From assembly GCA_019358985.1 (NCBI GenBank), contig JAHHIJ010000012.1, positions 62,001 through 126,000 on the forward strand: 64,000 nt of DNA, given 5' to 3'. This DNA comes from Tolypothrix brevis GSE-NOS-MK-07-07A (GTDB lineage Bacteria > Cyanobacteriota > Cyanobacteriia > Cyanobacteriales > Nostocaceae). Both the position numbers and the translations under genes were made by a program. Positions 11,668 through 47,489 of the stretch are shown one piece after another; the first letter of the stretch is position 1; each line of letters starts with the position of its first letter. Below the pieces are notes generated by a model. It saw nothing but the letters and a program-made list of their open reading frames with translations. It was not told the origin of the DNA and made no database searches.

Positions 11668-11675
11668 TGAGCGAT

Positions 11676-11744
11676 ACCTAACGGTAAGCTATCTCTTCGA
11701 GACGCTTCGCGGTAAGCGAAGCTATGCCGTAGGCTTTACGCTAA
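11676..11744. mobile_element. 69-bp palindromic repeat inserted in a HIP1 site
   Basis: Copy A reads GAGCGAT-CGCTCCC across this point (4989 onward). Here the same sequence is split after GCGAT (11671-11675) by 69 bp and resumes with CGCTCCC at 11745. The insert contains a perfect hairpin, GCTTCGC-GGTAA-GCGAAGC (11704-11722), and resembles the short dispersed repeats of filamentous cyanobacteria. It has no coding capacity. Confidence 0.65.
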
Positions 11745-13184: not shown

Positions 13185-13251
13185 GAATTACCACAATACC
13201 TTTATCAACACAAATTTTGCCTACCCTACTTTTAAGGAGGCTTCAGGGGCA

Positions 13252-28414: not shown

Positions 28415-28434
28415 ATAGGAATAATCTCATAATC

Positions 28435-28686: not shown

Positions 28687-28727
28687 AATGTAAGTCGCCA
28701 TTTTTAATAAGTGGCAGAGATGAGACT

Positions 28728-29912: not shown

Positions 29913-29915
29913 GTT

Positions 29916-30986
29916 ATGATTAGCAGTCAGGAACAGGAAATAAATAGCAAACAGAAAGATAAAAAATTCATTAAATGTGTCGTTTGGGATTTAGATAATA
30001 CCCTATGGCACGGTGTTTTGCTTGAAGATGAAAAAATTTGTTTACGAGAAAATATAGTAAATCTTATTCACACTTTAGACAGTCGTGGTATACTACAATC
30101 TATAGCAAGTAAAAATGAAAGTACAACAGCAATAGCTAAATTAGAAGAATTTGGATTAAAAGAATATTTTTTGTATCCTCAAATCAATTGGAATTCCAAA
30201 GCATCTTCCATCAAAGAAATTGCAACATTACTAAATATTGGTTTAGATGCGATCGCATTCATTGACGACCAATTATTTGAACTAGAAGAAGTACAATTTA
30301 ACCTGCCAGAAATTCTTTGTATCAATGCCGATAAAATTAGTAATGTTTTAGACATGTCTGTGATGAATCCCCGTTTTATTACGGAAGATTCAAGTATTAG
30401 AAGATTGATGTACATTAGTGATATGAAGCGGCAGAATGCAGAGAAAGAATTCGTAGGGACATCGGATGAATTCTTAGCTACGCTCAACATGCATTTCACA
30501 ATATCTACTGCCAAAGAAGAAGATTTGCAGCGTGCAGAAGAATTAACATTACGGACTAATCAATTGAATACAACAGGTTATACCTATTCCTATGACGAAC
30601 TTAATCACTTTCGTAAATCACAAAATCATAAGTTACTAATTGCAAGCTTGGAAGATAAGTATGGCAGCTACGGTAAAATAGGTTTAGCTCTAATTGAATG
30701 TCAAGCTGATACATGGATAATTAAGCTTTTACTGATGTCCTGTCGTGTTATGTCAAGGGGAGTAGGCACAATTATGATGAATCATATTATGAGTTTGGCT
30801 CAAAAAAATAATGTCCGTCTTTTGGCAGAGTTTGTCTCAAATGACCGCAATAGAATGATGTATATATCTTATAAATTTGCGGGTTTTAAAGAATTTGATC
30901 AAAGAGGAAACTCAGTTATTTTTGAAAATGATCTAACTAGAATTCAACCTGTACCTTTATATGTCAATTTCAAAGTAATTGATTAA
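29916..30986 (+). CDS. HAD-like glyceryl-ACP forming protein, FkbH/ZmaN-like
   Basis: 356 aa. HAD phosphatase motif I, WDLDNTLW, has Asp25 and Asp27; motif II is near ASKNES and motif IV near AFIDDQ. The C-terminal half (about 190-356) has an acetyltransferase-like fold with LLMSCRVMSRGVGTIMMNHI. FkbH proteins take 1,3-bisphosphoglycerate, dephosphorylate it and load glycerate on the partner ACP. The set dehydrogenase, ACP, acyl-CoA dehydrogenase, FkbH is complete for hydroxymalonyl-ACP. The O-methyltransferase needed for methoxymalonyl-ACP (FkbG) is not in the window. Confidence 0.93.
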   Translation: MISSQEQEINSKQKDKKFIKCVVWDLDNTLWHGVLLEDEKICLRENIVNLIHTLDSRGILQSIASKNESTTAIAKLEEFGLKEYFLYPQINWNSKASSIKEIATLLNIGLDAIAFIDDQLFELEEVQFNLPEILCINADKISNVLDMSVMNPRFITEDSSIRRLMYISDMKRQNAEKEFVGTSDEFLATLNMHFTISTAKEEDLQRAEELTLRTNQLNTTGYTYSYDELNHFRKSQNHKLLIASLEDKYGSYGKIGLALIECQADTWIIKLLLMSCRVMSRGVGTIMMNHIMSLAQKNNVRLLAEFVSNDRNRMMYISYKFAGFKEFDQRGNSVIFENDLTRIQPVPLYVNFKVID

Positions 30987-31030: not shown

Positions 31031-34000
31031 ATGGAAGGTAAGAATAATGAAATTATTAAGCGGCGTTCTCAACTTTCACCTACTAAACAAGCCATTTTAG
31101 AAAAGCGCTTACGGGGTGAGAGTGAATATAATCAAGCAATATTCATACCTCGTCGTACTCAGCAAAGCCCATGTCCTCTGTCTTTCCCTCAACAGCGATT
31201 GTGGTTTATCCAACAATTAGAACCTCAAAATTCCGCTTACAACGAATTTGCTTGTCTACAGTTAAGAGGTACTGTAAACTTTGCAATTTTAGAGAAAAGT
31301 TTTAATGAAATTCTAAAACGTCATGAATCCTTGCGAACTTCTTTTGAAACTTTAGATGGGCAACCATCTCAAGTCATTCATCCAGCCGTTACTTTAAAAT
31401 TGCCAGTGGTAGATTTGAGAAACTTACCATCGGCATCGCAAGATGTAGAAGTAGAAATGCTGACTGCTGAAATCGCTCAAAAGCCTTTTGACTTGGCATT
31501 CTGTCCCTTGCTGCGAGTGATTTTATTACAGATTAGTGAAGATAAATCTTTACTCTTGTTAGTCGTCCACCACATCGTTTGTGATGGATGGTCAATACAA
31601 TTATTCAATCAAGAATTAGCAGAAATATACAAAGGGTTTTTAACAGAAAAACCTTCTGCACTTGCAAAACTGCCGATTCAATATGCAGACTATTCGATAT
31701 GGCAGCATCAGTGGCTACAAGGTGAGCGAGAAAAAACTCAACTTTCATATTGGAAGCAGCAACTTGCAGATGCTCCAACAACCTTATCTTTGCCAACAGA
31801 CCGTCAACGACCTCTGGTACAAAGTTTCAAAGGAGCAGTAAGACACTTCAAGCTGTCATCAAGCTTGACTGATATGTTGAGGTCTTTAAGCAAGGAGCAA
31901 GGGGTGACTTTGTTTATGACCTTATTAGCAGCTTTTCAAGTACAACTTTACCGCTATACAGGTCAAGAAGATATCTGCATTGGCTCTCCAATTGCTAACC
32001 GCAACCATACTGATATTGAAAGGTTGATTGGCTTTTTTGTCAATACCCTTGTACTTCGTACTGACCTTTCTGGGAACCCAAGTTTTCTGGAATTACTAAA
32101 TCGAGTCCGTGAAGTATGTGTAGGAGCTTATGCTCATGCAGACCTTCCTTTCGAGCGATTAGTCGGGGAACTATACTCTGAGCGGAATCTTAGTCATAAC
32201 CCCCTGTTTCAAGTCATGTTTGTTTTGCAGGAAGATAACGACAAAGATTTGGTATTACCAAACTTGACTCTAAAATGGCTTCAAAACCATAGTGGGAGAG
32301 CCTTGTTTGATTTAACACTGAATGTGGTAGATGCTAAATCTGAACTTTGGGGATACTGGGAGTACAACACAGATTTGTTTGATGCTGGGACTATTGAGAG
32401 GATGGTAGGGCATTTTACTAATTTACTAGAAGATGTTGTTAGCCAGCCAGAGAAGTGTTTATCTGATTTACCATTATTAACAGAACCTGAGCGTCAGGCT
32501 CTTTTAGTTGACTGGAATAATACCGCTACTGATTACCCGCAAGATAAATGTATCCATGAATTATTTGAAACGCAGGTAGAGAAAACACCCGATGCAGTAG
32601 CAGTGGTATTTGAAAACCAACAGTTAAGTTATCGGGAACTAAACACCAAAGCAAATCAGTTAGCACACTACTTGCGATCGCTGGGAGTAAAACCAGAGGT
32701 ATTGGTAGGGATTTGTGTAGAGCGATCGCTTTCGATGGTCATTGGGCTATTAGCCATCCTCAAAGCTGGTGGTGCATACGTACCTCTCGACCCTAACTAT
32801 CCCCAGGAACGCTTGGCTTATATCTTAGAAGACTCCCAGCCAAGCGTATTACTCACACAACAATATCTGTTAGAAAAACTACCAAATAATCAAGCTCAAG
32901 TAATCTGCATCGATAATGACTGGGAATACATAGCTAAAGAAAGTATAGAAAATCCCATATCCAATATTACGCCTGATAACCTTGCTTACGTAATCTACAC
33001 CTCCGGTTCTACAGGTAAACCCAAAGGAGCGATGAATGCCCATAGAGGTATTAGCAATCGCTTACTATGGATGCAAGAAACTTATCAATTAACATTAAAA
33101 GATGCAGTTTTACAGAAAACTCCCTTCAGTTTCGATGTATCTGTATGGGAATTTTTCTGGACGTTAATGACTGGTGCGCGTTTAGTTGTTGCTCAACCAG
33201 AAGGTCATAAAGATACAAATTATCTAGTCAAATTGATTAGACAGCAGCAAATCACAACTTTACATTTTGTTCCTTCAATGCTGCAAGTTTTTATTGAAGC
33301 AGAAGGTTTAGAAAAATGCCAATCACTGGTACGAGTCATTGCTAGTGGTGAGGCATTACCAGCCCAGTTACCACAACGCTTTTTTAACAAACTTGATGCT
33401 CAACTACATAATCTCTATGGTCCAACAGAAACTGCTGTAGATGTGACTTTTTGGCAGTGCAAAAAAGACAATGCGACCAATCAAAACACAGTTCCTATTG
33501 GTCAACCAATTGCAAATATCCAAATATATTTACTTGATAAATATCTCAATCCGGTTCCCGTGGGAGTAACAGGTGAGGTTTATATTGGTGGTGTGGGGGT
33601 AGGAAGAGGTTACTTAAACCGTCCTGACTTGACGGCAGAGAAATTTATTCCTAATCCTTTTAGTCAGCAAACAGAACGTTTATATAAAACGGGGGACAAG
33701 GCACTTTATTTAGCAAATGGAGATATTGAGTATATAGGTCGGATTGACAATCAAGTAAAACTACGTGGTTTCCGAATTGAATTAGGAGAAATTGAGGCAA
33801 TCATTAGCCAATACCCAACAGTGCGGGAAACTGTGGCAGTAGTTAGCGGAGAATCAGTTGATTCTCAACGAATAGTTGCATATATAGTTCCTCAAATAGA
33901 ACAAACGCTGACAGTTTCAGAATTACGGGGCTTTTTAGAGGCGAAGTTGCCAAGCTACATGATACCAGCAGCTTTTGTGACCTTAGAAGCATTACCACTC

Positions 34001-37000
34001 ACACCCAATGGTAAGGTTGACCGCAAAGCATTACCTGCACCTGAATTCACACAAGTATCATCATCAAATATAATTCCTCCTTCCACTACAATTGAGAACT
34101 TATTAGCAGGTATTTGGTCAGAAATACTGGGTATAGAGCAAGTAGGTATTAGCAATAATTTCTTTGAACTAGGTGGTCACTCATTAATTGCAACTCGCGT
34201 GATTTCCCAAATTCGCCAAGTATTTCAAGTTGAGCTTCCCTTACGTTATTTATTTGAAAAACCAACAATAGCAGGATTAGCAAAAGAAATTGAAAAAGCG
34301 ATTAAGGTAGACTCAGCATTTGAAGTCACAAACATTGAGCAGATAGAGCGTACACAGGAATTACCGCTATCATTTGCTCAACAAAGACTGTGGTTTTTAG
34401 CTCAACTAGAACCAGATAGCCCGTTCTACAACATACCTGCTGCTGTTCGTCTACAGGGACAGTTAAATGTAGAAGCATTACAAGAAAGTTTTAACGAAAT
34501 TGTAAATCGCCACGAAGCACTGCGGACTAATTTTCAAACCAGAGAAGGACAAGCAGTAGCCGTTATCTCTCAAGAAAAGCCTATAACGTTGTCGATATTA
34601 GATATTAGCAACCTAGAAGCAAATCAACAACAAGCCGAAATCAAACAACAAGCAGCACAAGCAGCACAACAACCCTTTGACATTAGCAGTGACCACCTAC
34701 TGAGAGTCAAGCTATTACGTCTTAGCGAACAAGAACATATTGTGCTACTGACAATGCACCACATCGTTTCTGACGGTTGGTCAATCGGTGTGTTAGTAGA
34801 AGAATTAGCTACACTGTATCAGGCTTTTTGTCAGGGACAGTTCTCTCCATTGCCTACATTACCAATACAGTATGTAGACTTTGCTGGTTGGCAAAGACAA
34901 TGGCTACAAGGACAAGTACTAGAAAATCAGATATCTTATTGGCTAAAGCAGTTAGAGAACGCACCAAAAGTATTAGAATTACCTACAGACTACCCAAGAC
35001 CAGCAATTCAAACTTACCGTGGTGCAACCTACTCGTTTGAGTTATCAAAAGAATTATCCGCATCCCTAAATAAATTGAGCCAGCAGCAGGGAAGTACCTT
35101 ATTTATGACGTTGTTAGCAAGTTTCCAAATACTGCTATGGCGCTATACAGGTCAACAAGACATTGTGGTTGGTTCACCCATTGCTAACCGCAACCGAGCG
35201 GAAATAGAAGGGTTGATTGGATTTTTTGTCAACACCTTGGTATTGAGAACTAGCTTAGTAGGAAATCCTAGATTTGAGGAGCTACTAAAACGAGTGCGGG
35301 AAGTAGCATTAGGAGCTTATGCACATCAGGATTTGCCTTTTGAATTGTTAGTTGAACAAATGCAACCACAGCGTTCTTTAAGCCATGCTCCACTATTCCA
35401 AGTGATGTTTGTGCTTCAGAATGCGCCAATGTCTGGCTTAGAGTTACCCGGTTTGACTTTAACTCAGTTGGAAAGTGATAGCGGTAGTGCCCAGTTTGAT
35501 TTAACCCTATATATGACAGAAACAGAGTCAGGGTTAGTGGGGAGTTTTGAATACAATACTGATTTATTTGCTCAAAGTTCTATACAGAGAATGGTAGGTC
35601 ATTTGCAGACGTTGCTGGAAGCAATTGTTGCTAATCCACAGCGGCGTTTGTCAGATTTACCACTGTTGACAGAATTTGAGCAGTATCAATTGCTGCGGGA
35701 TTGGAATGATACAGAAATTGAATATCCCCAGGATCAATGTATTCATGAATTATTTGAAGCGCAGGTAGATAAAACACCTGATGCAGTAGCAGTAGTATTT
35801 GAAAACCAACAGTTAAGTTATCGGGAACTCAACCAACGAGCAAATCAGTTAGCACACTACTTGCAAAAACTAGGAGTAAAACCAGAGGTATTGGTCGGGA
35901 TTTGTGTAGAGCGATCGCTCTCTATGATCATCGGACTATTAGCTATCTTCAAAGCTGGTGGTGGATATGTACCCCTAGACCCCAGTTACCCAATTGAACG
36001 TATCGCTTTTATCTTAGAAGAGACTCAAGCACCAGTATTGCTCACTAAAACTTCCCTTGTTGAGCTAATACCCCAACACCAAGCTGAAGTAGTATGTTTA
36101 GATAGTGATTGGCATTTGTTCGCCCAACACAGCCAAGAAAATTTATTCTCCGAACTAACAACTGAAAATCTAGCTTATACCATCTATACCTCTGGTTCCA
36201 CTGGTAAACCTAAAGGTGTGCAAATTCCTCACATTGCTTTGAGCAACTTTTTGCACTCCATGAAGAAAGTGCCAGGGTTAACTTCCGAAGATACTTTGCT
36301 AGCAGTAACTACTTATTCCTTCGATATTGCGGCATTAGAGCTTTTCCTCCCAATCATTGTTGGCGCTCGCTTAGTTATTGGCAGTCGGGAGGTAGTTGCG
36401 GATGGAAATCAGTTGTCAGCTTTACTGGTAGATTCAAAAGCGACGGTCATGCAAGCCACACCAGCGACATGGCAGTTACTTTTAGCAGCAGGTTGGGATG
36501 GTAATCGTCAATTAAAAATTCTCTGTGGTGGCGAAGCTTTACCCGGAAAACTAGCAAATCAATTACTTGGGTTATGTGATTGTGTATGGAATATGTACGG
36601 TCCGACGGAAACCACTATTTGGTCAGCCGCTAGCCAAGTGGAAACAGTGAATAATACCGTACCAATTAGTTCTCCAATTGCAAATACGCAGCTTTATATC
36701 CTCGATAAATATCATCAGTTAGTTCCTGTGGGTGTAATAGGGGAACTGTGTATTGGTGGGGAAGGATTAGCAAGGGGCTATTTCCACCGTCCGGATTTGA
36801 CAGCAGAAAAATTTATTCCTAATCCTTTTAGTGATAAACCAGCACGTCTTTATAGAACAGGGGATTTAGCACGTTATTTAGCGAATGGAGATATAGAATA
36901 TATTGGTCGGATTGACAATCAAGTAAAACTACGTGGCTTCCGGATTGAATTGGGAGAAATTCAAACCCTTATCAGTCAACACCCTGAGGTACGAGAAACT

Positions 37001-37585
37001 GTAGTTGTAGTTCACGCTTCGGAAGCAGATTCTCAACGAATAGTTGCCTATGTAGTTCCAAAAACAGAGCAAGCGCCAACGATTTCTGAACTACGGGGTT
37101 TCTTAGAGGCTAAATTGCCCAGTTACATGATACCAGCAGCTTTTGTGAGTTTAGAAGCATTACCCCTCACACCCAATGGTAAAGTTGACCGCAAAGCCCT
37201 ACCGATACCTGATAGTATACGTCCTCAGTTGGAAGTAGTTTATCAGCCACCTCAAACAGAAATAGAAAAAACTATTGCTGATATTTGGCAAAATTTACTT
37301 AAACTTGAAGATGTGGGAATCCATGATAATTTCTTTGAACTGGGTGGTCATTCGCTACTTTTAGTGCAAGTACATAGCAACTTACGGCAAATTTTTAAAC
37401 GAGATATATCTGTTCTAGACTTATTCAGATATCCAACGATAAATTCTTTGACAAATTATTTTAATCAGACAGAAAATCAACAAATATCTGATGATATAAT
37501 GTTTGATATAAATGAAAGAATAGCAGATGGCAAGGCTCAACAAAGGAAGCGTCTGCAAAAGATTAAGTCTGGTGAGATAATTTAA
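31031..37585 (+). CDS. Two-module NRPS: C-A(Ser)-PCP-C-A(Gly)-PCP
   Basis: 2184 aa. Order: short docking-like N-terminus, C1 (HHIVCDGW near 179), A1 (YTSGSTGKPKG near 655), PCP1 (LGGHSLIATR near 1047), C2 (HHIVSDGW near 1242), A2 (near 1718), PCP2 (LGGHSLLLVQ near 2102). The A1 pocket reads D-V-W-H-I-S-L-V-D-K, which matches the serine code DVWHLSLVDK. A2 reads D-I-L-Q-L-G-M-I-W-K, which matches the glycine code DILQLGLIWK. No epimerase or methyltransferase is embedded. It should extend the ketide chain by Ser-Gly and pass it to the next PKS. The charged tail after PCP2 (RKRLQKIKSGEII) may be a docking segment. Confidence 0.94.
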   Translation: MEGKNNEIIKRRSQLSPTKQAILEKRLRGESEYNQAIFIPRRTQQSPCPLSFPQQRLWFIQQLEPQNSAYNEFACLQLRGTVNFAILEKSFNEILKRHESLRTSFETLDGQPSQVIHPAVTLKLPVVDLRNLPSASQDVEVEMLTAEIAQKPFDLAFCPLLRVILLQISEDKSLLLLVVHHIVCDGWSIQLFNQELAEIYKGFLTEKPSALAKLPIQYADYSIWQHQWLQGEREKTQLSYWKQQLADAPTTLSLPTDRQRPLVQSFKGAVRHFKLSSSLTDMLRSLSKEQGVTLFMTLLAAFQVQLYRYTGQEDICIGSPIANRNHTDIERLIGFFVNTLVLRTDLSGNPSFLELLNRVREVCVGAYAHADLPFERLVGELYSERNLSHNPLFQVMFVLQEDNDKDLVLPNLTLKWLQNHSGRALFDLTLNVVDAKSELWGYWEYNTDLFDAGTIERMVGHFTNLLEDVVSQPEKCLSDLPLLTEPERQALLVDWNNTATDYPQDKCIHELFETQVEKTPDAVAVVFENQQLSYRELNTKANQLAHYLRSLGVKPEVLVGICVERSLSMVIGLLAILKAGGAYVPLDPNYPQERLAYILEDSQPSVLLTQQYLLEKLPNNQAQVICIDNDWEYIAKESIENPISNITPDNLAYVIYTSGSTGKPKGAMNAHRGISNRLLWMQETYQLTLKDAVLQKTPFSFDVSVWEFFWTLMTGARLVVAQPEGHKDTNYLVKLIRQQQITTLHFVPSMLQVFIEAEGLEKCQSLVRVIASGEALPAQLPQRFFNKLDAQLHNLYGPTETAVDVTFWQCKKDNATNQNTVPIGQPIANIQIYLLDKYLNPVPVGVTGEVYIGGVGVGRGYLNRPDLTAEKFIPNPFSQQTERLYKTGDKALYLANGDIEYIGRIDNQVKLRGFRIELGEIEAIISQYPTVRETVAVVSGESVDSQRIVAYIVPQIEQTLTVSELRGFLEAKLPSYMIPAAFVTLEALPLTPNGKVDRKALPAPEFTQVSSSNIIPPSTTIENLLAGIWSEILGIEQVGISNNFFELGGHSLIATRVISQIRQVFQVELPLRYLFEKPTIAGLAKEIEKAIKVDSAFEVTNIEQIERTQELPLSFAQQRLWFLAQLEPDSPFYNIPAAVRLQGQLNVEALQESFNEIVNRHEALRTNFQTREGQAVAVISQEKPITLSILDISNLEANQQQAEIKQQAAQAAQQPFDISSDHLLRVKLLRLSEQEHIVLLTMHHIVSDGWSIGVLVEELATLYQAFCQGQFSPLPTLPIQYVDFAGWQRQWLQGQVLENQISYWLKQLENAPKVLELPTDYPRPAIQTYRGATYSFELSKELSASLNKLSQQQGSTLFMTLLASFQILLWRYTGQQDIVVGSPIANRNRAEIEGLIGFFVNTLVLRTSLVGNPRFEELLKRVREVALGAYAHQDLPFELLVEQMQPQRSLSHAPLFQVMFVLQNAPMSGLELPGLTLTQLESDSGSAQFDLTLYMTETESGLVGSFEYNTDLFAQSSIQRMVGHLQTLLEAIVANPQRRLSDLPLLTEFEQYQLLRDWNDTEIEYPQDQCIHELFEAQVDKTPDAVAVVFENQQLSYRELNQRANQLAHYLQKLGVKPEVLVGICVERSLSMIIGLLAIFKAGGGYVPLDPSYPIERIAFILEETQAPVLLTKTSLVELIPQHQAEVVCLDSDWHLFAQHSQENLFSELTTENLAYTIYTSGSTGKPKGVQIPHIALSNFLHSMKKVPGLTSEDTLLAVTTYSFDIAALELFLPIIVGARLVIGSREVVADGNQLSALLVDSKATVMQATPATWQLLLAAGWDGNRQLKILCGGEALPGKLANQLLGLCDCVWNMYGPTETTIWSAASQVETVNNTVPISSPIANTQLYILDKYHQLVPVGVIGELCIGGEGLARGYFHRPDLTAEKFIPNPFSDKPARLYRTGDLARYLANGDIEYIGRIDNQVKLRGFRIELGEIQTLISQHPEVRETVVVVHASEADSQRIVAYVVPKTEQAPTISELRGFLEAKLPSYMIPAAFVSLEALPLTPNGKVDRKALPIPDSIRPQLEVVYQPPQTEIEKTIADIWQNLLKLEDVGIHDNFFELGGHSLLLVQVHSNLRQIFKRDISVLDLFRYPTINSLTNYFNQTENQQISDDIMFDINERIADGKAQQRKRLQKIKSGEII

Positions 37586-37696: not shown

Positions 37697-40600
37697 GTGA
37701 AAATGAGTATCCCAACATCATCAATTTCTACTAATGGTTCAGAAATAGCAATTATTGGATTGGCAGGAAGATTTCCTGGAGCTAAAAATATTGATGAGTT
37801 TTGGAACAACCTTCAAAATGGCATAGAATCAATTTCTTTTTTCAGCGATGAAGAATTGTTGGAAGCAGGAATAGACGAAGAACTGCTTAGTTCCCAAAAC
37901 TATGTTAAAGCACATGGTGTTGTCGAAGATGCCGAATTATTTGATGCTGCTTTTTTTGGATTTAATCCCAGAGAAGCAGAAATCACTGACCCCCAGCACC
38001 GTATTTTTTTGGAGTGTGCGTGGGAAGCTTTAGAAAATGCAGGATATAAATCTGGAATTGAGAAATGTCCAGTAGGTGTGTTTGCTGGAGCTGGATTAAA
38101 TAGCTACTTGCTTAACCTTTATTCAAATCTCAAGGCAATATCGTTAGATGGAAAACAGCTAACGATAGGTTGTGATAAAGATTTTCTTTCTACACGTACT
38201 TCTTATAAACTTAATTTAACTGGTCCCAGCTACACTGTTCAAACAGCTTGTTCAACATCTTTGGTTGCCGTCCACTTAGCTTGCCAAAGCTTACTCAATG
38301 GTGAGTGTGATATCGCTTTAGCTGGTGGTGTGGCTATCAGTGCAGAAAGAAAAGCTGGATATCTATATACAGAAGGGGGAATAGCTTCTCCTGACGGACA
38401 TTGCCGTGCATTTGATGCTAATGCTCAGGGAGCAGTGGGTGGTGAAGGTGTAGGGATTGTAGTATTAAAGCGATTGGAAGACGCTTTAAGCGATCGCGAT
38501 ACGATTCATGCTGTAATCAAAGGTTCAGCTATCAATAATGATGGTTCATTCAAGGTTAGCTATACAGCACCCCGCATCGATACCCAAGCAAAGGCAATTA
38601 GAACAGCCCAACTAGTAGCCGAGGTCGAACCTGAGACTATTAGTTATATCGAAACTCACGGAACCGGAACAGTATTAGGAGACCCGATTGAAATTGCCGC
38701 GCTAACACAAGTTTTTCGCTTAAGTACTCAAAAGAAAGGCTTTTGTGCCATTGGTTCGGTTAAAACTAATATTGGACATTTGGACACAGCATCTGGTGTG
38801 GCGGGATTAATCAAAACCGTCCTAGCCCTCAAGCATCAAAAAATACCTCCGAGTTTACACTTTAATTCCCCTAATCCGGAAATTGATTTTGCCAACAGTC
38901 CTTTCTATGTCAATACCCAACTAGCCGAGTGGCAAAGCAATGGTACTCCTAGACGTGCAGGAGTTAGTTCCTTTGGAATAGGAGGAACTAATGCTCATGT
39001 AGTTCTCGAAGAAGCCCCTATTACCAAAGCTTCTAGCCCCTCTGAACCTTGGCAATTACTAACGCTATCTGCCAAAACCAGTTCTGCACTGGAAACAGCC
39101 ACCAGAAATTTAGCGAACTATTTCCAAGAAGACCCCGATTTAAATCTTGCCGACGCAGCTTACACATTGCAAGTAGGGCGTAAGGCTTTCGACTATCGCC
39201 GCACGGTTGTCTGTCGGGATGTGCAAGATGCTGTCAATGCACTTCAAGACCCAAAACGGGTTTTTACGAATACTCAAAAAATTCAGCAACGTCCTGTTGC
39301 CTTTATGTTTTCTGGACTAGGAACTCATTATTTGGATATGGCTCTTGAGTTTTACCAAACTGAGCCAATATTTAGTTCCTGTGTTGACCAATGTTGCGAG
39401 ATACTCAAACCCCTGCTTGGTCTGGATTTGCGAGATGTGTTGTATCCCCAGAGAAACACCAACAATGGCAATAAGCAAAAACAAGATACCCCCTCAACTG
39501 GGTTGGATTTGCGAAAAATGCTAGGTCGTGGTCAGGAACAAGCAGATGCAGAAACGTTACAGGCAACATCTTTACTAAATCAAACCGTTTTCACCCAACC
39601 AGCTATATTTATTGTTGAATATGCTTTAGCTCAACTTTGGATTTCCTGGGGTATTCGTCCTACAGCAATGATTGGCTACAGCATCGGCGAATATGTAGCC
39701 GCAACTCTAGCCGAAGTTTTGTCTCTAAAAGATGCCTTAACCTTAGTTGCTAGAAGGGCGCAAATGATTGAAGAATTGCCAGAAGGAGCAATGTTGGCAG
39801 TTCCTCTCTCAGAAGCAGAAATACAGCCCCTCCTGAATGAAGATATTTCCTTATCTGCAATCAACGGCTCATCATTATGTGTGATTGCGGGTGCTAAGGA
39901 TGCAGTCGCAGCATGGGAGCAGAAACTAGGGGAGCAAAATTTAATTGGTAAGCGTTTGCAGACATCTCATGCTTTCCATTCCCTAATGATGGAGGCGATC
40001 GCACCTGCTTTTGGTGATTTAGTCAAAACATTTAGCCTTAAATCTCCCAAAATTCCTTATATTTCTAATGTCACCGGCACTTGGATTACAGCAGAACAAG
40101 CAACTGATCCCAATTATTGGGTGAAGCACCTTTGTCAAGCAGTACGGTTTGCTGAGGGTGTACAAAATTTATGGCAAAAAGACAACCCAATTTTATTAGA
40201 GGTAGGTCCTGGTCAAGGATTAATTAGTTTCGCATCCCAATGTCTAGAAAGTGAAGATAGAGCTAAATTAGTAATGCTTCCTACCCTGCGCCATTCCTAT
40301 GAGCAGCAGTCAGATACCGCCTTTTTAATGAATACATTGGGTCGTTTATGGTTGACTGGGGTAGAAGTAGATTGGTCTAGTTTTTATGCCAAAGAACAAC
40401 GCACTCGTATTTCCTTACCAACTTATCCATTTGAGCGTCAGCGTTACTGGATTGAGATGAACAAGCAAGTACAGGGTGATTATCAAACCTCTGCATCTCT
40501 TGGTAAAAAAACTGACATAGCTGATTGGTTCTACATTCCTCGCTGGAAGCAATCCACACCACTTGAGGTTTTCCAGAAAGAAAAATCCTTGAAGCAAAAG

Positions 40601-43600
40601 TTGTGTTGGTTAGTGTTTGTCGATACCTATGGACTGGGAGCAGAGGCTGCCGAAAGACTTAAGAAACAGAATCAGGATGTGATAGTTGTTAGAATCACGG
40701 ATAATTTTGCGAAAATTAATGACAGCACTTATACAATTAATCCCCAACAAAGAGATGATTATGATACCTTGTTGCAATCACTACAAGAAGAGAATTGGAC
40801 ACCACAGGGAATAATCCATTTTTGGAGTGTTGCTCCTGCCGAAAGCTTACCAGACCGAGAATTAGGTGAACAAATACAGTTACAATCACGCTACCAATTT
40901 TTTGAAACCTGTCAGAATCTGGGTTTTTACAGCTTGCTATTTTTGGCACAAGCCTTAGCGAAGCAGAATATAACTGAATCAATCAAGTTGATGGTTGTCA
41001 CCAGCAATATACATGATGTAACAGGCGGTGAGAATTTATGCCCTGAAAAATCAACCATATTAGGACCGTGCAAGGTAATTCCACAGGAATGTCCCAACAT
41101 TATCTGCTGCTGTTTTGATATCGTGCTTCCAGAATCAGGAGCCAAATTACCCAGTAAATTAATAGATTCTCTCATTGGGGAATTTACGGCACAACCAAGT
41201 GAAAATGTTGTCGCCTACCGTGGTCATCATCGCTGGATTCAAACATATGAACCAATCCGTTTAGATAAAAGTAGTGTTGGTAGAAACAAGCTAAGGAAAG
41301 GTGGAGTTTATCTAATTACAGGAGGTCTTGGTAATGTTGGTTTATTATTGGCAGAATATTTAGCTCAGACAGTACAGGCGAAATTAATTCTGCTTGGGCG
41401 GAAATGTCTTCCAGAAAGAGAGCAGTGGCAAGAATGGCTAGCAAATCATGATGGGGATGATAGCATTAGCCGCAAGATTCGCAAAGTGCAGTCACTCATA
41501 GCTTTAGGTGCAGAGGTTCTCGTCATAAGTGCTGATGTTGCCGATGAACAACAAATGCATAATGCAATTGCGATCGCCATTAAAAAATTTGGTGCAATTA
41601 ATGGTGTTATCCACGCTGCGGGAACAGGGTCAGATGGTATTATTGCAGAAACTTCTAAAGCCAAAGCACAATTAGTATTTCATCCTAAAGTGCATGGACT
41701 ATTTGTTTTAGAAAAGGTTCTACAAGGTCAAGAATTAGATTTCTGTCAATTAACATCATCATTATCATCTGTATTGGGAGGTTTAGGATTTACTTCCTAT
41801 TGTGCGGCAAATATTTTTATGGATGCTTTTACCCATAACTACAACAAAACTAGCCCCTCTCCTTGGAGTAGTTTTAACTGGGATGATTGGGTAACTGAAG
41901 AGGAACAGCAAAATGTAGATATTATGGACTCCCATAAATCTTTGTATAAATATGGCATGACATCCAAGGCTAACAGCATAGATGTATTTGAACGTCTATT
42001 ATCGATGTGTGGTTTTCCTCAGCTTGTTGTCTCCAGTGGTGACTTGCAAGCTAGGTTACGGCAATGGATAAAGTTTGAATCTCTAGAAAAGAGTGAGTTA
42101 GAAGGAGAGAGAAACTTATTATCAAAACACTTATTATCAAAACATCAAAGACCTAACCTGGAAATAGCATATATTGCCCCTAGAAATCAAGTAGAAATAT
42201 CTGTTGGTAATATTTGGCAAGATGTCTTAGGTATCGAGCAAATAGGTATCCACGATAATTTTTTTGAGTTAGGAGGAAACTCTGTAATTGCGATTCAAAT
42301 TGCAGCTAAAGCTAACAAAGTAGGTTTGAATTTAAGACCAGATCAGTTTTTTAAACATCAAACAATTGCTGAATTAGCAGCAGATTTATGTATTACCCAA
42401 ACTAACCAACTAGAACAGGATTTAAGTTCAAAAAAATTATACCTCACACCAAGCCAGCATTGGTTGCTTGAACAGAATCAACGTGATATACATCATTGTC
42501 ACCAATCTCTACTGCTGGAAATGGAACAAGTGTGCGATCGTAATTTGTTAGAGCAGACTTTACAATATTTAATTGAACATCATGATGTATTTCGCTTGCG
42601 TTTAATTCAGAAAGAATCTATCTGGCAACAAGTTTATACCAATTATTCTGATAACATTGGATTGAAATGGGTAGATTTATCGGTACTACCAGAAATTGAG
42701 CGAAAATTCGCGATAGAGTCACAAGCGACAGAATTAAAGACAAGTTTGAACTTATTTGAAGGACCACTTGTAAGGTTTGCTTTCTTTGACCTAGCGCCAC
42801 AACAAACTGGTTACCTGTTAATTATCATTCATCATCTTGCAATTGATAGTGTTTCTTGGCGGATTTTGCTAGAAGGTGTGCAAACAGTTTATCAGCAAAT
42901 TAGTCGAGGTGAGGCGATATATTTGCCAGATAACACCACCCCATATATACAGTGGGCACAATTTCTACAGGATTATGCTCAATCTTCAGAAATGAAGCGA
43001 GAGCAAGATTATTGGCTCCAAGAAACAGAAAAATCATTTAGCTGCTTACCTGTTGACTATTCAACAGATGACAATACAGTAGCTAATTCGGATACCGTAT
43101 CAGTTTGTCTAAGCAAACAAGAAACAAAAGCTGTATTAGACGAGATACACAAAGCCTATAATACTGAAATCAACGATGTCTTACTCACAGCTTTGGTGCA
43201 AGCTTTTGCAAAATGGACAGGAGAGCAGAAACTGCGGGTTGATATCAGGGATAATAATAGAGAGAAAATATTTAAAGATGTAGATCAGTCTCGTACTGTT
43301 GGTTTATTCAGCACTTGTTTCCCAACTATTTTAGATACAACGAAACTCTCTGAAGTGGGAGATTCATTAGTAGCAATAAAAGAATACTTACGTGGCATTC
43401 CCAATCGTGGAATTGGTTACGGTATACTACGCTACTTAAGTAGCAAGCAGGAGATACAATCTAAACTGCAAGCCTTGCCTCAGAGCGAAGTAAGTTTTAA
43501 TTACTTAGGTCAGTATGACCAGGTGATATCAGATTCATCTTTATTTGCTCTACCCCAAAATTCTCAAGGTATCGACTACAGTCAGCCTACAAACCGAATT

Positions 43601-43855
43601 TATTTAATAGAGATTAATGCAATCGTGATTCAAGAACAATTGCAATTGCACTGGATGTACAGTCAGTCTATTCACCGTCGAGAAACAATTAAAAGTTTGG
43701 CTAATAATTTTATCGCAGCAATACGTTTTCTCATTGTTCACTGTAAATCAGTTAAAACAACAATGCATACACCCTCTGACTTTCCAAAAGCTAACTTAAA
43801 TAAGCAAAACTTGGATCAGTTCATCACAAAAATTAGCCAAAAGCCAAAAAAGTAA
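37697..43855 (+). CDS. Hybrid protein KS-AT-KR-carrier-epimerization domain
   Basis: 2052 aa from a GTG at 37697 with AAGGA 7 nt upstream; an ATG at 37703 is an alternative. KS (about 10-435, TACSTS near 182), AT (about 525-850, GYSIGE near 658, HAFHS near 757), KR (TGGLGNVG near 1207, SYCAAN near 1368). The carrier at about 1490-1560 has GGNSVIAIQIAAKAN and FFKHQTIAELA, the form of PCPs that precede epimerases. A complete NRPS epimerase follows (about 1580-2020): HHLAIDSVSWRIL near 1711, RTVGLFSTCFPTIL, PNRGIGYGILRYL, FNYLGQ. No C or A domain lies between KR and carrier, so the epimerase seems to act on a ketide-bearing carrier, or a C-A pair was lost. Confidence 0.92.
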   Translation: MKMSIPTSSISTNGSEIAIIGLAGRFPGAKNIDEFWNNLQNGIESISFFSDEELLEAGIDEELLSSQNYVKAHGVVEDAELFDAAFFGFNPREAEITDPQHRIFLECAWEALENAGYKSGIEKCPVGVFAGAGLNSYLLNLYSNLKAISLDGKQLTIGCDKDFLSTRTSYKLNLTGPSYTVQTACSTSLVAVHLACQSLLNGECDIALAGGVAISAERKAGYLYTEGGIASPDGHCRAFDANAQGAVGGEGVGIVVLKRLEDALSDRDTIHAVIKGSAINNDGSFKVSYTAPRIDTQAKAIRTAQLVAEVEPETISYIETHGTGTVLGDPIEIAALTQVFRLSTQKKGFCAIGSVKTNIGHLDTASGVAGLIKTVLALKHQKIPPSLHFNSPNPEIDFANSPFYVNTQLAEWQSNGTPRRAGVSSFGIGGTNAHVVLEEAPITKASSPSEPWQLLTLSAKTSSALETATRNLANYFQEDPDLNLADAAYTLQVGRKAFDYRRTVVCRDVQDAVNALQDPKRVFTNTQKIQQRPVAFMFSGLGTHYLDMALEFYQTEPIFSSCVDQCCEILKPLLGLDLRDVLYPQRNTNNGNKQKQDTPSTGLDLRKMLGRGQEQADAETLQATSLLNQTVFTQPAIFIVEYALAQLWISWGIRPTAMIGYSIGEYVAATLAEVLSLKDALTLVARRAQMIEELPEGAMLAVPLSEAEIQPLLNEDISLSAINGSSLCVIAGAKDAVAAWEQKLGEQNLIGKRLQTSHAFHSLMMEAIAPAFGDLVKTFSLKSPKIPYISNVTGTWITAEQATDPNYWVKHLCQAVRFAEGVQNLWQKDNPILLEVGPGQGLISFASQCLESEDRAKLVMLPTLRHSYEQQSDTAFLMNTLGRLWLTGVEVDWSSFYAKEQRTRISLPTYPFERQRYWIEMNKQVQGDYQTSASLGKKTDIADWFYIPRWKQSTPLEVFQKEKSLKQKLCWLVFVDTYGLGAEAAERLKKQNQDVIVVRITDNFAKINDSTYTINPQQRDDYDTLLQSLQEENWTPQGIIHFWSVAPAESLPDRELGEQIQLQSRYQFFETCQNLGFYSLLFLAQALAKQNITESIKLMVVTSNIHDVTGGENLCPEKSTILGPCKVIPQECPNIICCCFDIVLPESGAKLPSKLIDSLIGEFTAQPSENVVAYRGHHRWIQTYEPIRLDKSSVGRNKLRKGGVYLITGGLGNVGLLLAEYLAQTVQAKLILLGRKCLPEREQWQEWLANHDGDDSISRKIRKVQSLIALGAEVLVISADVADEQQMHNAIAIAIKKFGAINGVIHAAGTGSDGIIAETSKAKAQLVFHPKVHGLFVLEKVLQGQELDFCQLTSSLSSVLGGLGFTSYCAANIFMDAFTHNYNKTSPSPWSSFNWDDWVTEEEQQNVDIMDSHKSLYKYGMTSKANSIDVFERLLSMCGFPQLVVSSGDLQARLRQWIKFESLEKSELEGERNLLSKHLLSKHQRPNLEIAYIAPRNQVEISVGNIWQDVLGIEQIGIHDNFFELGGNSVIAIQIAAKANKVGLNLRPDQFFKHQTIAELAADLCITQTNQLEQDLSSKKLYLTPSQHWLLEQNQRDIHHCHQSLLLEMEQVCDRNLLEQTLQYLIEHHDVFRLRLIQKESIWQQVYTNYSDNIGLKWVDLSVLPEIERKFAIESQATELKTSLNLFEGPLVRFAFFDLAPQQTGYLLIIIHHLAIDSVSWRILLEGVQTVYQQISRGEAIYLPDNTTPYIQWAQFLQDYAQSSEMKREQDYWLQETEKSFSCLPVDYSTDDNTVANSDTVSVCLSKQETKAVLDEIHKAYNTEINDVLLTALVQAFAKWTGEQKLRVDIRDNNREKIFKDVDQSRTVGLFSTCFPTILDTTKLSEVGDSLVAIKEYLRGIPNRGIGYGILRYLSSKQEIQSKLQALPQSEVSFNYLGQYDQVISDSSLFALPQNSQGIDYSQPTNRIYLIEINAIVIQEQLQLHWMYSQSIHRRETIKSLANNFIAAIRFLIVHCKSVKTTMHTPSDFPKANLNKQNLDQFITKISQKPKK

Positions 43856-43867: not shown

Positions 43868-45268
43868 ATGAACACAGAAAATATTGAAGATATCTATGAA
43901 CTTACACCTCTGGAAAAAGGTATTCTCTTCCATTGTTTGTATGCGGAAAATGAATCAAAGCTATACTTTTTCCAATTTATCTGTACCCTCCGTAATCTTG
44001 ATACAGATATTTTTGAAAAAGCTTGGCAGTTTTTAGTGGATCGACACACTATTTTACGTACTGGATTTTATTGGGAGGAGATTGAAAATCCACTACAAGT
44101 TGTGTACAAACAAGTCAAAGTACCGATAAATCATTATGACTGGCGCAAGCTAGATTTAATCGAACAAGAAGATAAATTGGAAAGTTTTATTAAGGGCGAT
44201 CGTGAATTGTACTTTGACTTTTCACAACCATGTTTAATGCGTCTAGCTTTAATTCGTCTTACTGATGACTGCTACCAGTTAGTCTGGACTTATCACTTCA
44301 TAATCATAGATGGTTGGACTGATGCACTAATAACTGGTGAGTTTGTGCAAATTTATGAAGCACTTATTCAAAATAAAGAAATATATTTAGCTCCTACTCG
44401 TCCTTATAGGGATTACATTAATTGGTTACAGGAGCAGGATATAGCTAAAACCGAAATTTTTTGGCGGCAGGCATTACAGGGTGTAAGAAGACCAACTCCC
44501 CTTACTTATATAGAGAGGATTGATAAGTCGTCTTCTCACGAACAAAGATACGATGAGGAAATAATCAAAATATCAACAGAAGGAACACGGACGATAGAAT
44601 CCTTGGTAAAAGAATATCGTCTCACCCTAGCAACCATACTTAACGGTATTTGGGCTATCCTCCTCAGTCGCTATAGCGGTCAAAGGGATGTACTATATGG
44701 TTGTACCGTTACCGGTCGTCCGGCGGACTTGGATAATGCAGAATCAATAGCTGGTGTATTTATAAATACATTGCCAATTTATGTAAAAGTAGATACTGAG
44801 CAGTATCTGTTATCATGGATACAAAATTTCCAGACTCAACTGGTTGAGACGCGCAACTATGAATATACTCCACTGACAGAAATTCATAATTGGAGCGAAA
44901 TACCGCGAGGCATGGATTTATTTAATAGTCATGTAGTCTTAGAACAGTTTCCAAGTGCAAAATTTACATACGATTGGGAAAAAATTTTAGGCATTAAACA
45001 TAACAAAACATATTACAGAAATAATTATCCTCTTAATTTAGTTATATATCCAGGTGAAGAATTAGTAATAGCATTTTCCTACGATTCTAGAAAGTTTGAT
45101 GTTAGCACTATTATCGGGATACTCAAAGATATTGAGATGCTTTTGCATCAGTTTATCGCTGACCCTAACATACAGATAAAAGATTTATTATTTTCTACGC
45201 AGAAACAGCGTTTAATCACGTCAATTTTAGAAAAAGAAGTATCAGCTATAGGAATATCTAAGTCATGA
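43868..45268 (+). CDS. Free-standing NRPS condensation domain (post-epimerase DCL type)
   Basis: 466 aa, a complete condensation domain with nothing attached. The N-terminus (ELTPLEKGILFHCLY) is of the type that follows epimerases. The active-site motif is YHFIIIDGW (near 148), so the first His of HHxxxDG is Tyr, but the second, catalytic His is kept. Later motifs are present (SRYSGQRDVLYGCTVTGRP, SIAGVFINTLPIYV). It follows an epimerase-terminated protein, and the next NRPS module (47645-50416) has only the C-terminal half of a C domain. This protein is therefore the likely condensation catalyst in trans between them. AAGGAAG precedes its ATG. It overlaps the next gene by 4 bp. Confidence 0.92.
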   Translation: MNTENIEDIYELTPLEKGILFHCLYAENESKLYFFQFICTLRNLDTDIFEKAWQFLVDRHTILRTGFYWEEIENPLQVVYKQVKVPINHYDWRKLDLIEQEDKLESFIKGDRELYFDFSQPCLMRLALIRLTDDCYQLVWTYHFIIIDGWTDALITGEFVQIYEALIQNKEIYLAPTRPYRDYINWLQEQDIAKTEIFWRQALQGVRRPTPLTYIERIDKSSSHEQRYDEEIIKISTEGTRTIESLVKEYRLTLATILNGIWAILLSRYSGQRDVLYGCTVTGRPADLDNAESIAGVFINTLPIYVKVDTEQYLLSWIQNFQTQLVETRNYEYTPLTEIHNWSEIPRGMDLFNSHVVLEQFPSAKFTYDWEKILGIKHNKTYYRNNYPLNLVIYPGEELVIAFSYDSRKFDVSTIIGILKDIEMLLHQFIADPNIQIKDLLFSTQKQRLITSILEKEVSAIGISKS

Positions 45269-46146
45269 TGATACTATATGAAATAGAAAGAAGATACAAA
45301 CTTTCAAGTGATGAATTTACCAAAAACTATGTTAGTCGAGGAAAACCTGTCATAATTCCTGGAGTTATTCCTAACTGGAATGCTTGTAGTCAATGGTCTT
45401 TAAACTACTTCAAGGAATTAGCACCATCCTTGAATATTTACGCTAAAAGATTTAGCAATAAAGGAATTGAAATATGTAGTCTGACAATGGAAAAGTATAT
45501 AGGATTAATAGAATCTTATGAAGCCGATCCTCTAAATAATCCCTCTCCACCATATTGTCACGACTTACCTTTATTTAGTTTAATTCCTTCATTAATAAAA
45601 GAAGCTCAACCGTTCCCTTTAGATTATTTGCCAGAATGGTATTGGTATAAGTGGTGGCGATACTGTCAGTTCTTTTTGGGTTGTTCTAATAGCGTTACTC
45701 CACTCCATTTTGATTGTCTACTTACTAACAATATTTTTTTTCAAATTGTTGGACGTAAACAATTTACGATATTACTACCTGAAGATGCAAAATATTGTTA
45801 TCGCAAGGGCTGGCGATGGTTTCTTGTGAATCCAGAAAATCCAGACTTCAACAAATATCCTGAATATAAATATGCCAGTCCGATTAAGTTTATCGTTAAT
45901 CCTGGTGAGATTTTATATATGCCACCTGGGACATTACATCATGTTAGAAGCTTAGATATGTCAATTTCTTTTAATATTGATTGGCACACAAAAAAAAGTT
46001 CTTTGAATGCCTTAGCAGCTAGTGTCAAAGGTATGCCTATACAAAACACTTACTATAATTCTTTGCTTGCGATGGGATTAGTATTTAAAATACCATCCCA
46101 AGTAATATTCAAATTTTACAAATCTTATCTGAATTATATCTCTTGA
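45265..46146 (+). CDS. JmjC/cupin-8 type Fe(II)/2-oxoglutarate-dependent oxygenase
   Basis: 293 aa. Family landmarks: RGKPVIIPG (25-33), TPLHFD with metal ligands His148 and Asp150, Lys165 in GRKQFTILLPED as a candidate 2-oxoglutarate contact, and PPGTLHHVRSL with distal His225 or His226. These match cupin-8/JmjC hydroxylases (FIH and TYW5 group). The gene overlaps the free C domain gene by 4 bp (ATGA) and is followed by the DABA aminotransferase gene, so it probably hydroxylates an amino acid or a carrier-bound residue of this pathway. Substrate and position cannot be read from sequence. It is unlike the TauD/SyrP-type aspartate hydroxylases known in several siderophore pathways. Confidence 0.82.
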   Translation: MMILYEIERRYKLSSDEFTKNYVSRGKPVIIPGVIPNWNACSQWSLNYFKELAPSLNIYAKRFSNKGIEICSLTMEKYIGLIESYEADPLNNPSPPYCHDLPLFSLIPSLIKEAQPFPLDYLPEWYWYKWWRYCQFFLGCSNSVTPLHFDCLLTNNIFFQIVGRKQFTILLPEDAKYCYRKGWRWFLVNPENPDFNKYPEYKYASPIKFIVNPGEILYMPPGTLHHVRSLDMSISFNIDWHTKKSSLNALAASVKGMPIQNTYYNSLLAMGLVFKIPSQVIFKFYKSYLNYIS

Positions 46147-46229: not shown

Positions 46230-47489
46230 ATGAATATTTTTGAACAGTGCGAATCCAACGTTAGAAGTTATTGCCGTAGTTTTCCAGCCATATTTCATCG
46301 GGCTAAAGGTTCGATTGTTTATGCTGAATCAGGTCGAGAATATATAGATTTTTTTGCAGGTGCAGGTGCATTAAATTATGGTCATAATCATGACTATATA
46401 AAACAAAAAGTCATCTCCTATTTAGATGCGGATGGGATAGCACACGGTTTAGACATGTATACTTCTGCGAAGGAGAAGTTTTTAGCTAAGTTTAACGAAG
46501 TTATTCTAAATAAAAAAGGCTTAGATTATCGTATACAGTTCTGCGGTCCCACTGGAACAAATGCTGTTGAAGCCGCTTTGAAATTAGCGAGGAAAGTAAA
46601 GAAAAGACCTGGTATATTTTCCTTTATGGGTGCTTATCATGGAATGACTTTAGGTAGCTTATCAATTACTGCGAATACTTCAATTCGAGCAGGGGCAATT
46701 GGTACATTAAGTAATGTCACATTTATGCCCTATCCCTATGGTTTCATGGAGAGTTTTGATACGATAAAATATATAGAGTCAGTTTTAAATGACGTTAGCT
46801 CAGGAATTGAAAAGCCGGCTGCAATAATTTTTGAAACAGTACAAGCTGAAGGTGGAGTTGTTGTTGCTCCCATTGAGTGGATGCAAAGACTAAGAAACCT
46901 ATGTAACGAGCATGATATCTTGTTGATCTGTGATGATATTCAAGTAGGTTGCGGTAGGACAGGCTCTTTCTTTTCTTTTGAAAGAGCAGATATTGTTCCC
47001 GATATAGTTGTACTGTCTAAATCTATTAGTGGATATGGGTTTCCTATGTCTTTACTTTTGATTAAGCCAGAATTAGACATTTGGGAACCAGGTGAGCATA
47101 ATGGCACATTTAGAGGTAATCAATTAGCATTTGTTGGGGCTACAGCAGCTTTAGAATATAGAGAGAATAGCACTCTTGAACAAGATGTTAAGTCAAAAGA
47201 ACTTTTCTTGAAAAATTTTCTATTCCAACAAATATCACAAATCAACGAAGATATAGCAATACGGGGAATAGGAATGATTTGGGGCATTGATTTGACTAAT
47301 TTTGGCGGTAGTAATTTAGCAAAAAATATCACCATGCGTTGTTTTGAAAAAGGATTAATAGTTGAAAGGGCAGGAAGAAATGACACTGTTATCAAATTAT
47401 TACCTCCTTTAACAATTGAAATGACCACTTTACGAGAAGGTTGCTCAATTATAGAAACGGCTTTTAGTGAATTATTGGAAAATAACTGA
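46230..47489 (+). CDS. Diaminobutyrate-2-oxoglutarate aminotransferase, EctB-like
   Basis: 419-aa class III PLP aminotransferase. The start MNIFEQCESNVRSYCRSFP and FFAGAGALNYGHN are hallmarks of the EctB/diaminobutyrate group. Other landmarks are CGPTGTNAVEAALKLAR (103-121), Asp235-Asp236 in ICDDIQVGCGRTG and the PLP lysine Lys264 in VLSKSISGYG. It makes L-2,4-diaminobutyrate from aspartate semialdehyde and glutamate. No ectA or ectC is near, so ectoine synthesis is unlikely. Its place directly before an NRPS whose A domain has acidic pocket residues points to supply of diaminobutyrate as a building block. Confidence 0.9.
   Translation: MNIFEQCESNVRSYCRSFPAIFHRAKGSIVYAESGREYIDFFAGAGALNYGHNHDYIKQKVISYLDADGIAHGLDMYTSAKEKFLAKFNEVILNKKGLDYRIQFCGPTGTNAVEAALKLARKVKKRPGIFSFMGAYHGMTLGSLSITANTSIRAGAIGTLSNVTFMPYPYGFMESFDTIKYIESVLNDVSSGIEKPAAIIFETVQAEGGVVVAPIEWMQRLRNLCNEHDILLICDDIQVGCGRTGSFFSFERADIVPDIVVLSKSISGYGFPMSLLLIKPELDIWEPGEHNGTFRGNQLAFVGATAALEYRENSTLEQDVKSKELFLKNFLFQQISQINEDIAIRGIGMIWGIDLTNFGGSNLAKNITMRCFEKGLIVERAGRNDTVIKLLPPLTIEMTTLREGCSIIETAFSELLENN

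Follow-up and report, generated by a model that had tools for sequence, protein, structure and literature searches.

Loss of the catalytic base in an epimerization-type domain that ends a cyanobacterial polyketide synthase module, and the domain's probable retention as a coupler

Within the 64,000-nucleotide stretch of Tolypothrix brevis GSE-NOS-MK-07-07A that we analysed (assembly GCA_019358985.1, contig JAHHIJ010000012.1, positions 62,001 to 126,000 of the forward strand; hereafter the window), a polyketide synthase (PKS) protein consisting of ketosynthase (KS), acyltransferase (AT), ketoreductase (KR) and carrier (T) domains ends in a domain related to the epimerization (E) domains of nonribosomal peptide synthetases (NRPSs). 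Its architecture, the loss of its catalytic base, its docking tail, the condensation (C) domain that follows it and the purifying selection acting on it are observed features of this protein and its relatives. We consider it probable that the terminal domain descends from an NRPS E domain, has lost the ability to epimerize, and persists because it couples the protein, without catalysis, to the standalone C domain encoded next to it.

An epimerization domain by descent that lacks its base

The protein, which we call PKS-E, is encoded by a single open reading frame (ORF) of 2052 aa with a GTG start (Table 1), and Pfam finds KS, AT, KR, carrier and a C-family domain in this order, just as an earlier note made from the letters of the window had read it. 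Pfam detects neither an adenylation (A) nor a methyltransferase domain in the protein, and the gap between KR and carrier measures only 73-101 aa across the 63 PKS-E proteins examined; the cryptic A domain that the note thought might sit there is thus ruled out, as is a methyltransferase.

The terminal domain scores 144.6 bits against the NCBIfam model TIGR01720 (cut-off 74.2), and its best matches among solved sequences are the E domains of the PvdL, bacitracin, tyrocidine and gramicidin S synthetases. An AlphaFold2 model built from 35 sequences (pLDDT 85.8, pTM 0.87) returns E domains of the same four systems as its top Foldseek matches in the PDB (TM-score 0.79-0.87 by query length). The motifs HHLAIDSVSW, PNRGIGYG and FNYLGQ are all found, and to this extent the earlier description of a complete epimerase with all its motifs stands; it fails because motif 4, the bearer of the base, has changed, reading IRDNNRE in the window versus LEGHGRE in comparison E domains. 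From work on GrsA and TycA, we take the Glu of motif 4, as catalytic base, and the second His of HHxxxDG to form the catalytic pair. In addition, the Gly of HHxxxDG has become Ser (a change also present in 2 of 76 comparison E domains) and GWF has become GLF. We file the domain as E by descent and fold, and not as a competent epimerase.

The base is missing throughout a branch of a larger family

A class-level search of 388 genomes with a KR-T-E query, in which two candidates were scored per genome, gave full-length matches in three genomes (that of the window, G375 and G225), all belonging to the window's own family. Within that family, a search of 217 genomes (E <= 1e-170, four candidates scored per genome, such that counts are lower bounds) recovered at least 68 KS-AT-KR-T-E matches in 58 genomes, 67 of which span the whole KR-T-E portion and one of which is partial; the further proteins of this order that the earlier note had proposed to look for thus exist in number. 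In a scan of named genomes, KR and E share one frame in cyanobacteria in 19 of the best 80 of 522 loci (names include Nostoc, Calothrix, Fischerella, Scytonema, Tolypothrix and Anabaena), and we take the genera concerned to be Nostocales throughout. Motifs were read for all 68 proteins and genomic context for 63; the remaining five were assigned to clades by motif and identity and not by tree, and the trees, substitution rates, and counts of tails and C domains given below rest on the 63 or on named subsets. For comparison we assembled 76 E domains (36 + 40) from high-scoring matches that do not reach into a KR. An upstream A domain was seen for nine of them in the fetched loci and for one in locus L254, the others being chosen by match extent alone; one of the 76 (L221, in L254) is itself a dead E domain, and a 38-bit E fragment (L201) was left out.

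The family divides into clades Ia (n=8, including the window), Ib (n=15) and II (n=45). The base Glu of motif 4 is absent from all eight domains of clade Ia (L072 being the eighth) and present in 74 of the 76 comparison domains. Over the whole family, the base is a Glu in 56/68 PKS-linked versus 74/76 comparison domains and the second His of HHxxxDG is kept in 58/68 versus 75/76; losses are deeper at the Asn of E7 (11/68 versus 76/76), and neither the Gly of HHxxxDG (70/76 in the comparison set) nor the motif-4 His (74/76) occurs in any of the 68. When we scanned the 97 columns conserved in >=93% of the 76 comparison domains across 63 PKS-E proteins (20 of clade I, 43 of clade II), 66 were kept in >=80% of clade I and 81 likewise in clade II, and the motif-4 His was the only column kept in <30% of both. 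The earlier note had counted a dead active site unconserved in homologues against a functional reading: the site is indeed dead in the window's branch, but the domain itself is conserved.

In four genomes, two KS-AT-KR-T-E genes lie about 15-17 kb apart on one contig: G425 (L078/L092), G465 (L081/L128), G486 (L091/L129) and G490 (L090/L115). Both genes belong to clade I in G425, and the other three genomes pair one gene of clade Ib with one of clade II.

The predicted substrate offers no alpha stereocentre

Because the AT carries a HAFH signature, no methyltransferase is present, the KR looks intact and the A domain upstream has a Gly code, the intermediate on the PKS-E carrier is expected to have only a beta-hydroxyl centre and no stereocentre at C-alpha, and the domain would thus meet no substrate of the kind that an epimerase acts on. 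This prediction assumes that HAFH denotes a malonyl-type AT, that the KR tetrad is read correctly by its Lys, Tyr and Asn, and that the A codes have the amino-acid meanings we give them. HAFH is present in 56 of 60 aligned PKS-E ATs, three others being truncated and one reading HGFH. The A codes, read by alignment, run Asn-like, Ser and Gly, then 2,4-diaminobutyrate (Dab) after PKS-E, with two more left without assignment.

The earlier note had supposed that a hydroxymalonyl-type cassette (HCDH/ACP/ACDH/FkbH) in the same cluster could supply PKS-E with an alpha-hydroxy extender, on which the E domain might act as a C2 epimerase. Two ATs that lie next to such a cassette in relatives, a discrete one in L078 and one in L075 that is cut by the edge of the stretch, are respectively 78% and 80% identical to that of the first PKS in the cluster, whereas the PKS-E AT is closest to other HAFH-bearing PKS-E ATs (up to 97%, L092). 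Because the first PKS's AT resembles these cassette-side ATs, the cassette probably feeds that PKS rather than PKS-E, and a supply to the window's PKS-E is disfavoured by the same identities. In L075, L077 and L078, however, the cassette lies directly beside PKS-E genes whose truncated ATs have lost their active-site Ser, which makes an alpha-hydroxy unit on those carriers plausible. An active C2 epimerase working on a hydroxymalonyl-derived ketide would draw on this arrangement and on the presence of the cassette within the window's cluster, yet the base Glu is missing from the window's domain and from those of precisely these three loci, as it is from all eight members of the branch, and the PKS-E AT of the window is intact with HAFH, the cassette-type AT being that of the first PKS; we find such an activity scarcely credible.

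The discrete AT of L078 lies at positions 620-2044 of that locus, and in all three loci the cassette beside PKS-E comprises FkbH, ACDH and HCDH. The KR of the window (41303-41890) is just 52-55% identical to the KRs of its nearest relatives, L074-L076, L074 and L075 being 82% identical to one another; the low values read as a sign of KR exchange.

A docking tail and a partner condensation domain

We infer a coupler role because fold, tail and C partner are all conserved. In the mechanism that we propose, a T-E unit would have been joined downstream of KS-AT-KR; malonyl extension of a glycyl chain followed by reduction would leave 4-amino-3-hydroxybutanoyl, with no acidic alpha stereocentre, on the carrier; the E-like domain would take up this carrier, while the TPSDF tail and the last helix would dock the PKS protein onto the DCL-type C domain; and this standalone C domain would serve the Dab-type half-C-A-T module. 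Docking and hand-over would then be the selected function; the order of modules and the identities of extender and amino acids are likewise predictions.

The E domain is the last domain found in all 63 PKS-E proteins, and its tail reads TPSDF or TPSDY in 56 of them and differs by one letter in the other seven. Since TPSDF also occurs once among nine NRPS-linked E domains of the same loci, the motif marks a docking-competent E tail and not PKS-E specifically. On the donor side of a communication-mediating (COM) pair, the window has TPSDF followed by a helix (residues 466-478 of the model); on the acceptor side, the head of its C domain reads LTPLEKG, which is near, although not identical, to the L(T/S)P(M/L)QEG pattern.

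In 61 of 63 PKS-E loci, the next downstream domain is a C domain that, among all entries of our own domain library, is closest to the window's standalone C, which is a separate protein of 466 aa. Of the two exceptions, L114 has an intervening cupin gene and L120 stops at the edge of its stretch. C domains can be typed by their N-terminal heads, and that of the window reads YELTPLEKGILFH rather than LSFAQxRLWF, placing it in the DCL type, as do the heads of 59 of the 60 aligned partner C domains (the remaining one, L086, is cut there). By the same reading, the DCL type is found in 7 of 8 C domains that follow an NRPS-linked E, and the LSFAQ type in all but 3 of 43 that follow an A-T module. Adjacency, tail and selection (see below) thus largely bear out the earlier suggestion that the domain is a structural part recruiting the following DCL domain.

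The active site of the partner has itself changed in the window's branch: HHxxxDG reads HFIIIDG in the window, and the HH pair is altered (to HF, NF or NH) in 7/7 partners of the branch, although it is intact in 13/13 of clade Ib and 39/40 of clade II. Amide formation by the HF-type domain may nevertheless be possible, because mutation of the second His of C domains does not always abolish condensation, according to the part of the source available (PMC11546977).

In the presumed acceptor module, a half C (window 47645-48500) is fused to A-T, with the full standalone C encoded upstream, and half-C-A-T occurs in 17 of 20 clade-I loci. We take the A code of this module, DIWEMVADD, to specify Dab.

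An NRPS form of the same joint

Locus L254 carries, at 9550-14118, an Ala-code C-A-T-E. Behind it come the same standalone C, with 60% identity, and the same aminotransferase and half-C-A-T. Its E domain is dead, having no HH pair and Lys in place of the base Glu (TLVVDD, MKGNVRE). In a tree enlarged by a further 40 comparison domains and two outside sequences, it falls with clade I (starred set of 21). Because this dead E precedes the same standalone C, aminotransferase and half-C-A-T, we read the T-E/C joint as common to a PKS and an NRPS form that differ in their upstream chemistry, and because a C-A-T-E occupies the same place, it is likely that C-A and KS-AT-KR were swapped ahead of the T-E block. 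That NRPS and PKS clusters of cyanobacteria exchange parts in a mosaic fashion is reported in the available portion of PMC12184294.

The earlier note had also raised the loss of a C-A pair. While L254 does have a C-A-T-E at this point, a simple loss from a C-A-T-E module in the window's strain is very improbable: all 20 clade-I proteins for which context was read, which come from 8 genus codes, share the PKS form, and KS-AT-KR and T-E form one uninterrupted ORF. As to the origin of the fusion, a free quick tree of 99 domains needs two changes for it, but the best tree in which all 63 PKS-E are held together has a likelihood 30 units higher (p-AU 0.877); the trees are compatible with either one or two origins in these cyanobacteria.

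L254 also bears on the possibility that the E-like domain is a platform that recruits trans-acting tailoring enzymes, here the cupin_8 protein, in the manner of an X domain. In 16 of 20 clade-I loci the standalone C is followed by genes for a cupin_8 protein and an aminotransferase, and there are precedents for C-family domains that have lost catalysis and act in this way (PMC8949500, as far as its accessible part goes), but L254 keeps the dead E, the standalone C and the aminotransferase with no cupin between them, and only L114 among the clade-II loci has a cupin match right after PKS-E. We regard such a platform as quite improbable.

Selection, decay and points against a coupler

For the E domain, ratios of nonsynonymous to synonymous substitution rates (dN/dS), computed with our own NG86 script, are 0.18-0.35 over nine pairs from clade I and 0.09-0.35 over five from clade II. 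The KS domains of the same nine clade-I pairs give 0.08-0.20, and the comparison E domains give 0.04-0.22 (seven pairs, three with dS >2). The domain is thus constrained, although less tightly than a working E. No in-frame stop lies within the aligned E of any of the 68 proteins (63 of which come from stop-free frames), and 5 of the 68 family-search rows have one stop somewhere in the match.

These values speak to the reading that the domain is a neutral relic, a leftover E without a present role in slow decay, which we hold to be unlikely. Its dN/dS does exceed that of the KS and of most comparison pairs, several motif residues are gone, and the partner C is also degenerate in the window's branch; however, the clade-I ratios stay at 0.18-0.35, the aligned E domain is free of stops in all 68 proteins, and a TPSDF-like tail is found in every one of the 63.

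Several observations weigh against a coupler. Constraint on the domain is partly relaxed, since its dN/dS exceeds that of the KS of the same nine pairs and of most comparison E pairs, the pairs not being independent of one another. The dyad of His and Glu/Asp, intact in 0/8 clade Ia domains, persists in 8/15 of clade Ib and 45/45 of clade II, so that "dead" holds for the window's branch. More than 300 bases separate the PKS-E and C genes in 10 of the 61 loci; on reading, four of these stretches contain a gene of about 300 aa, and one of the four also a 664-aa frame. The partner C of the window and of L074-L076 is without its second active-site His (HF). The docking motif is not peculiar to PKS-E, since the nine NRPS-linked E domains of the same loci have TPSDF in one case and looser forms of it or none in the rest. 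Finally, the dead E on the Ala module of L254 shows that decay is not confined to settings without a stereocentre.

PKS-linked E domains in clade II and outside cyanobacteria

Clade II presents the reverse picture. Its KRs have mostly lost the Lys (39/43) and the Asn of YxAAN (41/43; e.g. RANGHG and AAYPAAH, in loci such as L044 and L100-L111), whereas both residues are kept in 20/20 KRs of clade I. Because of these losses, the chain carried in clade II may be a beta-keto, gamma-amino one, whose C-4 is the former alpha carbon of the amino acid. The link between a degenerate KR and a kept E dyad (45/45) rests on few lineages and is no proof.

PKS-linked E domains could be regarded as a functional class of their own, one that acts as a coupler in the window's branch and, in clade II, would enolise or epimerize a beta-keto, gamma-amino acyl thioester at C-4; we consider this distinctly unlikely. 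Two cases lie outside cyanobacteria. L192, from a betaproteobacterial metagenome-assembled genome, has KR-T-E-C with HHLVADVIAL, EGHGRE and FLYQG, and so retains the base and the motif-4 His. L176, from Archangium lansinium, has a KR, a dehydratase-like stretch (named by eye), T and E, with HELVLDAASW, VRSNGRE and FQHLG, and repeats the Glu to Arg and His to Asn changes of the window. Both form long branches of unsure placement in the enlarged tree that includes the E of L254. If PKS-linked E is such a class, these two cases would mean that it has arisen and changed repeatedly.

Comparison with known systems

The E domains of NRPSs (PvdL-E2, TycA, TycB3, GrsA and bacitracin synthetase 3) share with that of the window its fold, its length, the E2, E6 and E7 motifs and a TPSD tail, and the solved PvdL and bacitracin entries are, by their titles, E-C units. 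In contrast to these, the window's domain has neither the base Glu nor the His of motif 4, sits on a PKS module, and is predicted to meet no alpha stereocentre in its donor. In LgrA of linear gramicidin synthetase, an inactive E domain reportedly follows a glycine module. The inactivity itself is reported in the part of PMC8150014 that is available, and LgrA resembles the window in retaining an E domain that does not work; it differs in being an NRPS C-A-T-E and a single case, as against a PKS-linked family with a lost residue in common. In COM pairs, the E domain ends in TPSD and the C domain bears L(T/S)P(M/L)QEG in its head region (PMC11546977, in the excerpt accessible); to pairs of the TycA/TycB type correspond TPSDF and LTPLEKG in the window, although here the domain bearing the donor tail is degenerate and PKS-borne and the acceptor pattern is near rather than identical. 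The X domains of glycopeptide synthetases, C-family domains that have lost catalysis and serve as a binding platform in the recruitment of P450s (PMC8949500, likewise in part), differ from the window's E in subtype, position and partner.

The PKS-E family suggests a natural and repeated answer to a hard problem in engineering, namely how a PKS module can deliver its chain to the condensation domain of an NRPS. Should coupling be the sole reason why the E fold is retained, T-E/DCL units could serve to connect PKS modules with what follows them, and the genome-mining rule by which an E domain denotes a D-residue would be wrong for the PKS-E family. The contrast between branches, with KR intact and E decayed in one and KR degenerate and E dyad kept in the other, means that a link between substrate and E chemistry can be put directly to the test.

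The surrounding gene cluster

Genes for TonB-type receptors and a periplasmic binding protein lie upstream of the hybrid cluster, which looks like a siderophore cluster by its gene content. Its order is FAAL-ACP-C-A-T, KS-AT-KR-T, the HCDH/ACP/ACDH/FkbH cassette, C-A-T-C-A-T, PKS-E, the standalone C and cupin_8, followed by the diaminobutyrate aminotransferase, half-C-A-T, C-A-methyltransferase-T, a pyridoxal phosphate (PLP) decarboxylase and a further KS-AT-KR-T; it ends with C-A-T-thioesterase, a P450, SDRs, a PPTase and MFS transporters, in part outside the window. No KS-AT-KR-T-E module was found in the accessible parts of the literature on cyanochelin B, fatuamide A, lusichelins, floridanemamides and minutumamides, and neither such a module nor a family of PKS modules ending in a degenerate E appears in the titles and abstract openings that searches of open-licence literature aimed at it listed.

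Table 1. Features of the PKS-E protein and of neighbouring genes, in positions of the window.
Feature	Positions	Strand	Basis
First PKS, KS-AT-KR-T; AT closest to ATs beside the cassette in relatives	22834..27498	+	
HCDH, ACP (about 28435-28686, start inferred, named by eye), ACDH and FkbH; hydroxymalonyl-ACP type cassette	27560..30986	+	
C-A(Ser code)-T-C-A(Gly code)-T, presumed donor to the PKS-E module	31031..37585	+	
KS-AT-KR-T-E protein, a PKS module with a terminal E-like domain	37697..43855	+	ORF, Pfam
KS domain, about aa 16-440	37742..39016	+	Pfam
AT domain, GYSIGEY and HAFH signature	39302..40363	+	Pfam, alignment
KR, structural and catalytic part; Lys (HPKVHG), Tyr and Asn (SYCAAN) present; predicted active	40652..41890	+	Pfam, motifs
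Carrier (T), FELGGNSVIAI	42209..42382	+	Pfam
E-like domain, catalytic base lost	42431..43798	+	Pfam, TIGR01720, model, motifs
HHLAIDSVSW, E2 motif; His pair and Asp kept, Gly changed to Ser	42830..42859	+	
IRDNNRE in place of LEGHGRE of comparison E domains; base Glu changed to Arg, His to Asn	43244..43264	+	
FNYLGQ, E7 motif, kept	43496..43513	+	
TPSDF and terminal helix, COM-donor-like docking tail	43769..43840	+	Helix 466-478 of model; motif role from the available part of PMC11546977
Standalone C domain, DCL-type N-terminal signature YELTPLEKGILFH; HHxxxDG reads HFIIIDG	43868..45268	+	
Cupin_8/JmjC-like protein, candidate hydroxylase	45265..46146	+	
Diaminobutyrate aminotransferase	46230..47489	+	
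Half C (C-terminal lobe only), A (code DIWEMVADD) and T, presumed acceptor module	47645..50416	+	

On the minus strand at 6810-9431 of the window, the plug and barrel of a TonB-dependent receptor are encoded in two adjoining ORFs, as though a single gene had been interrupted.

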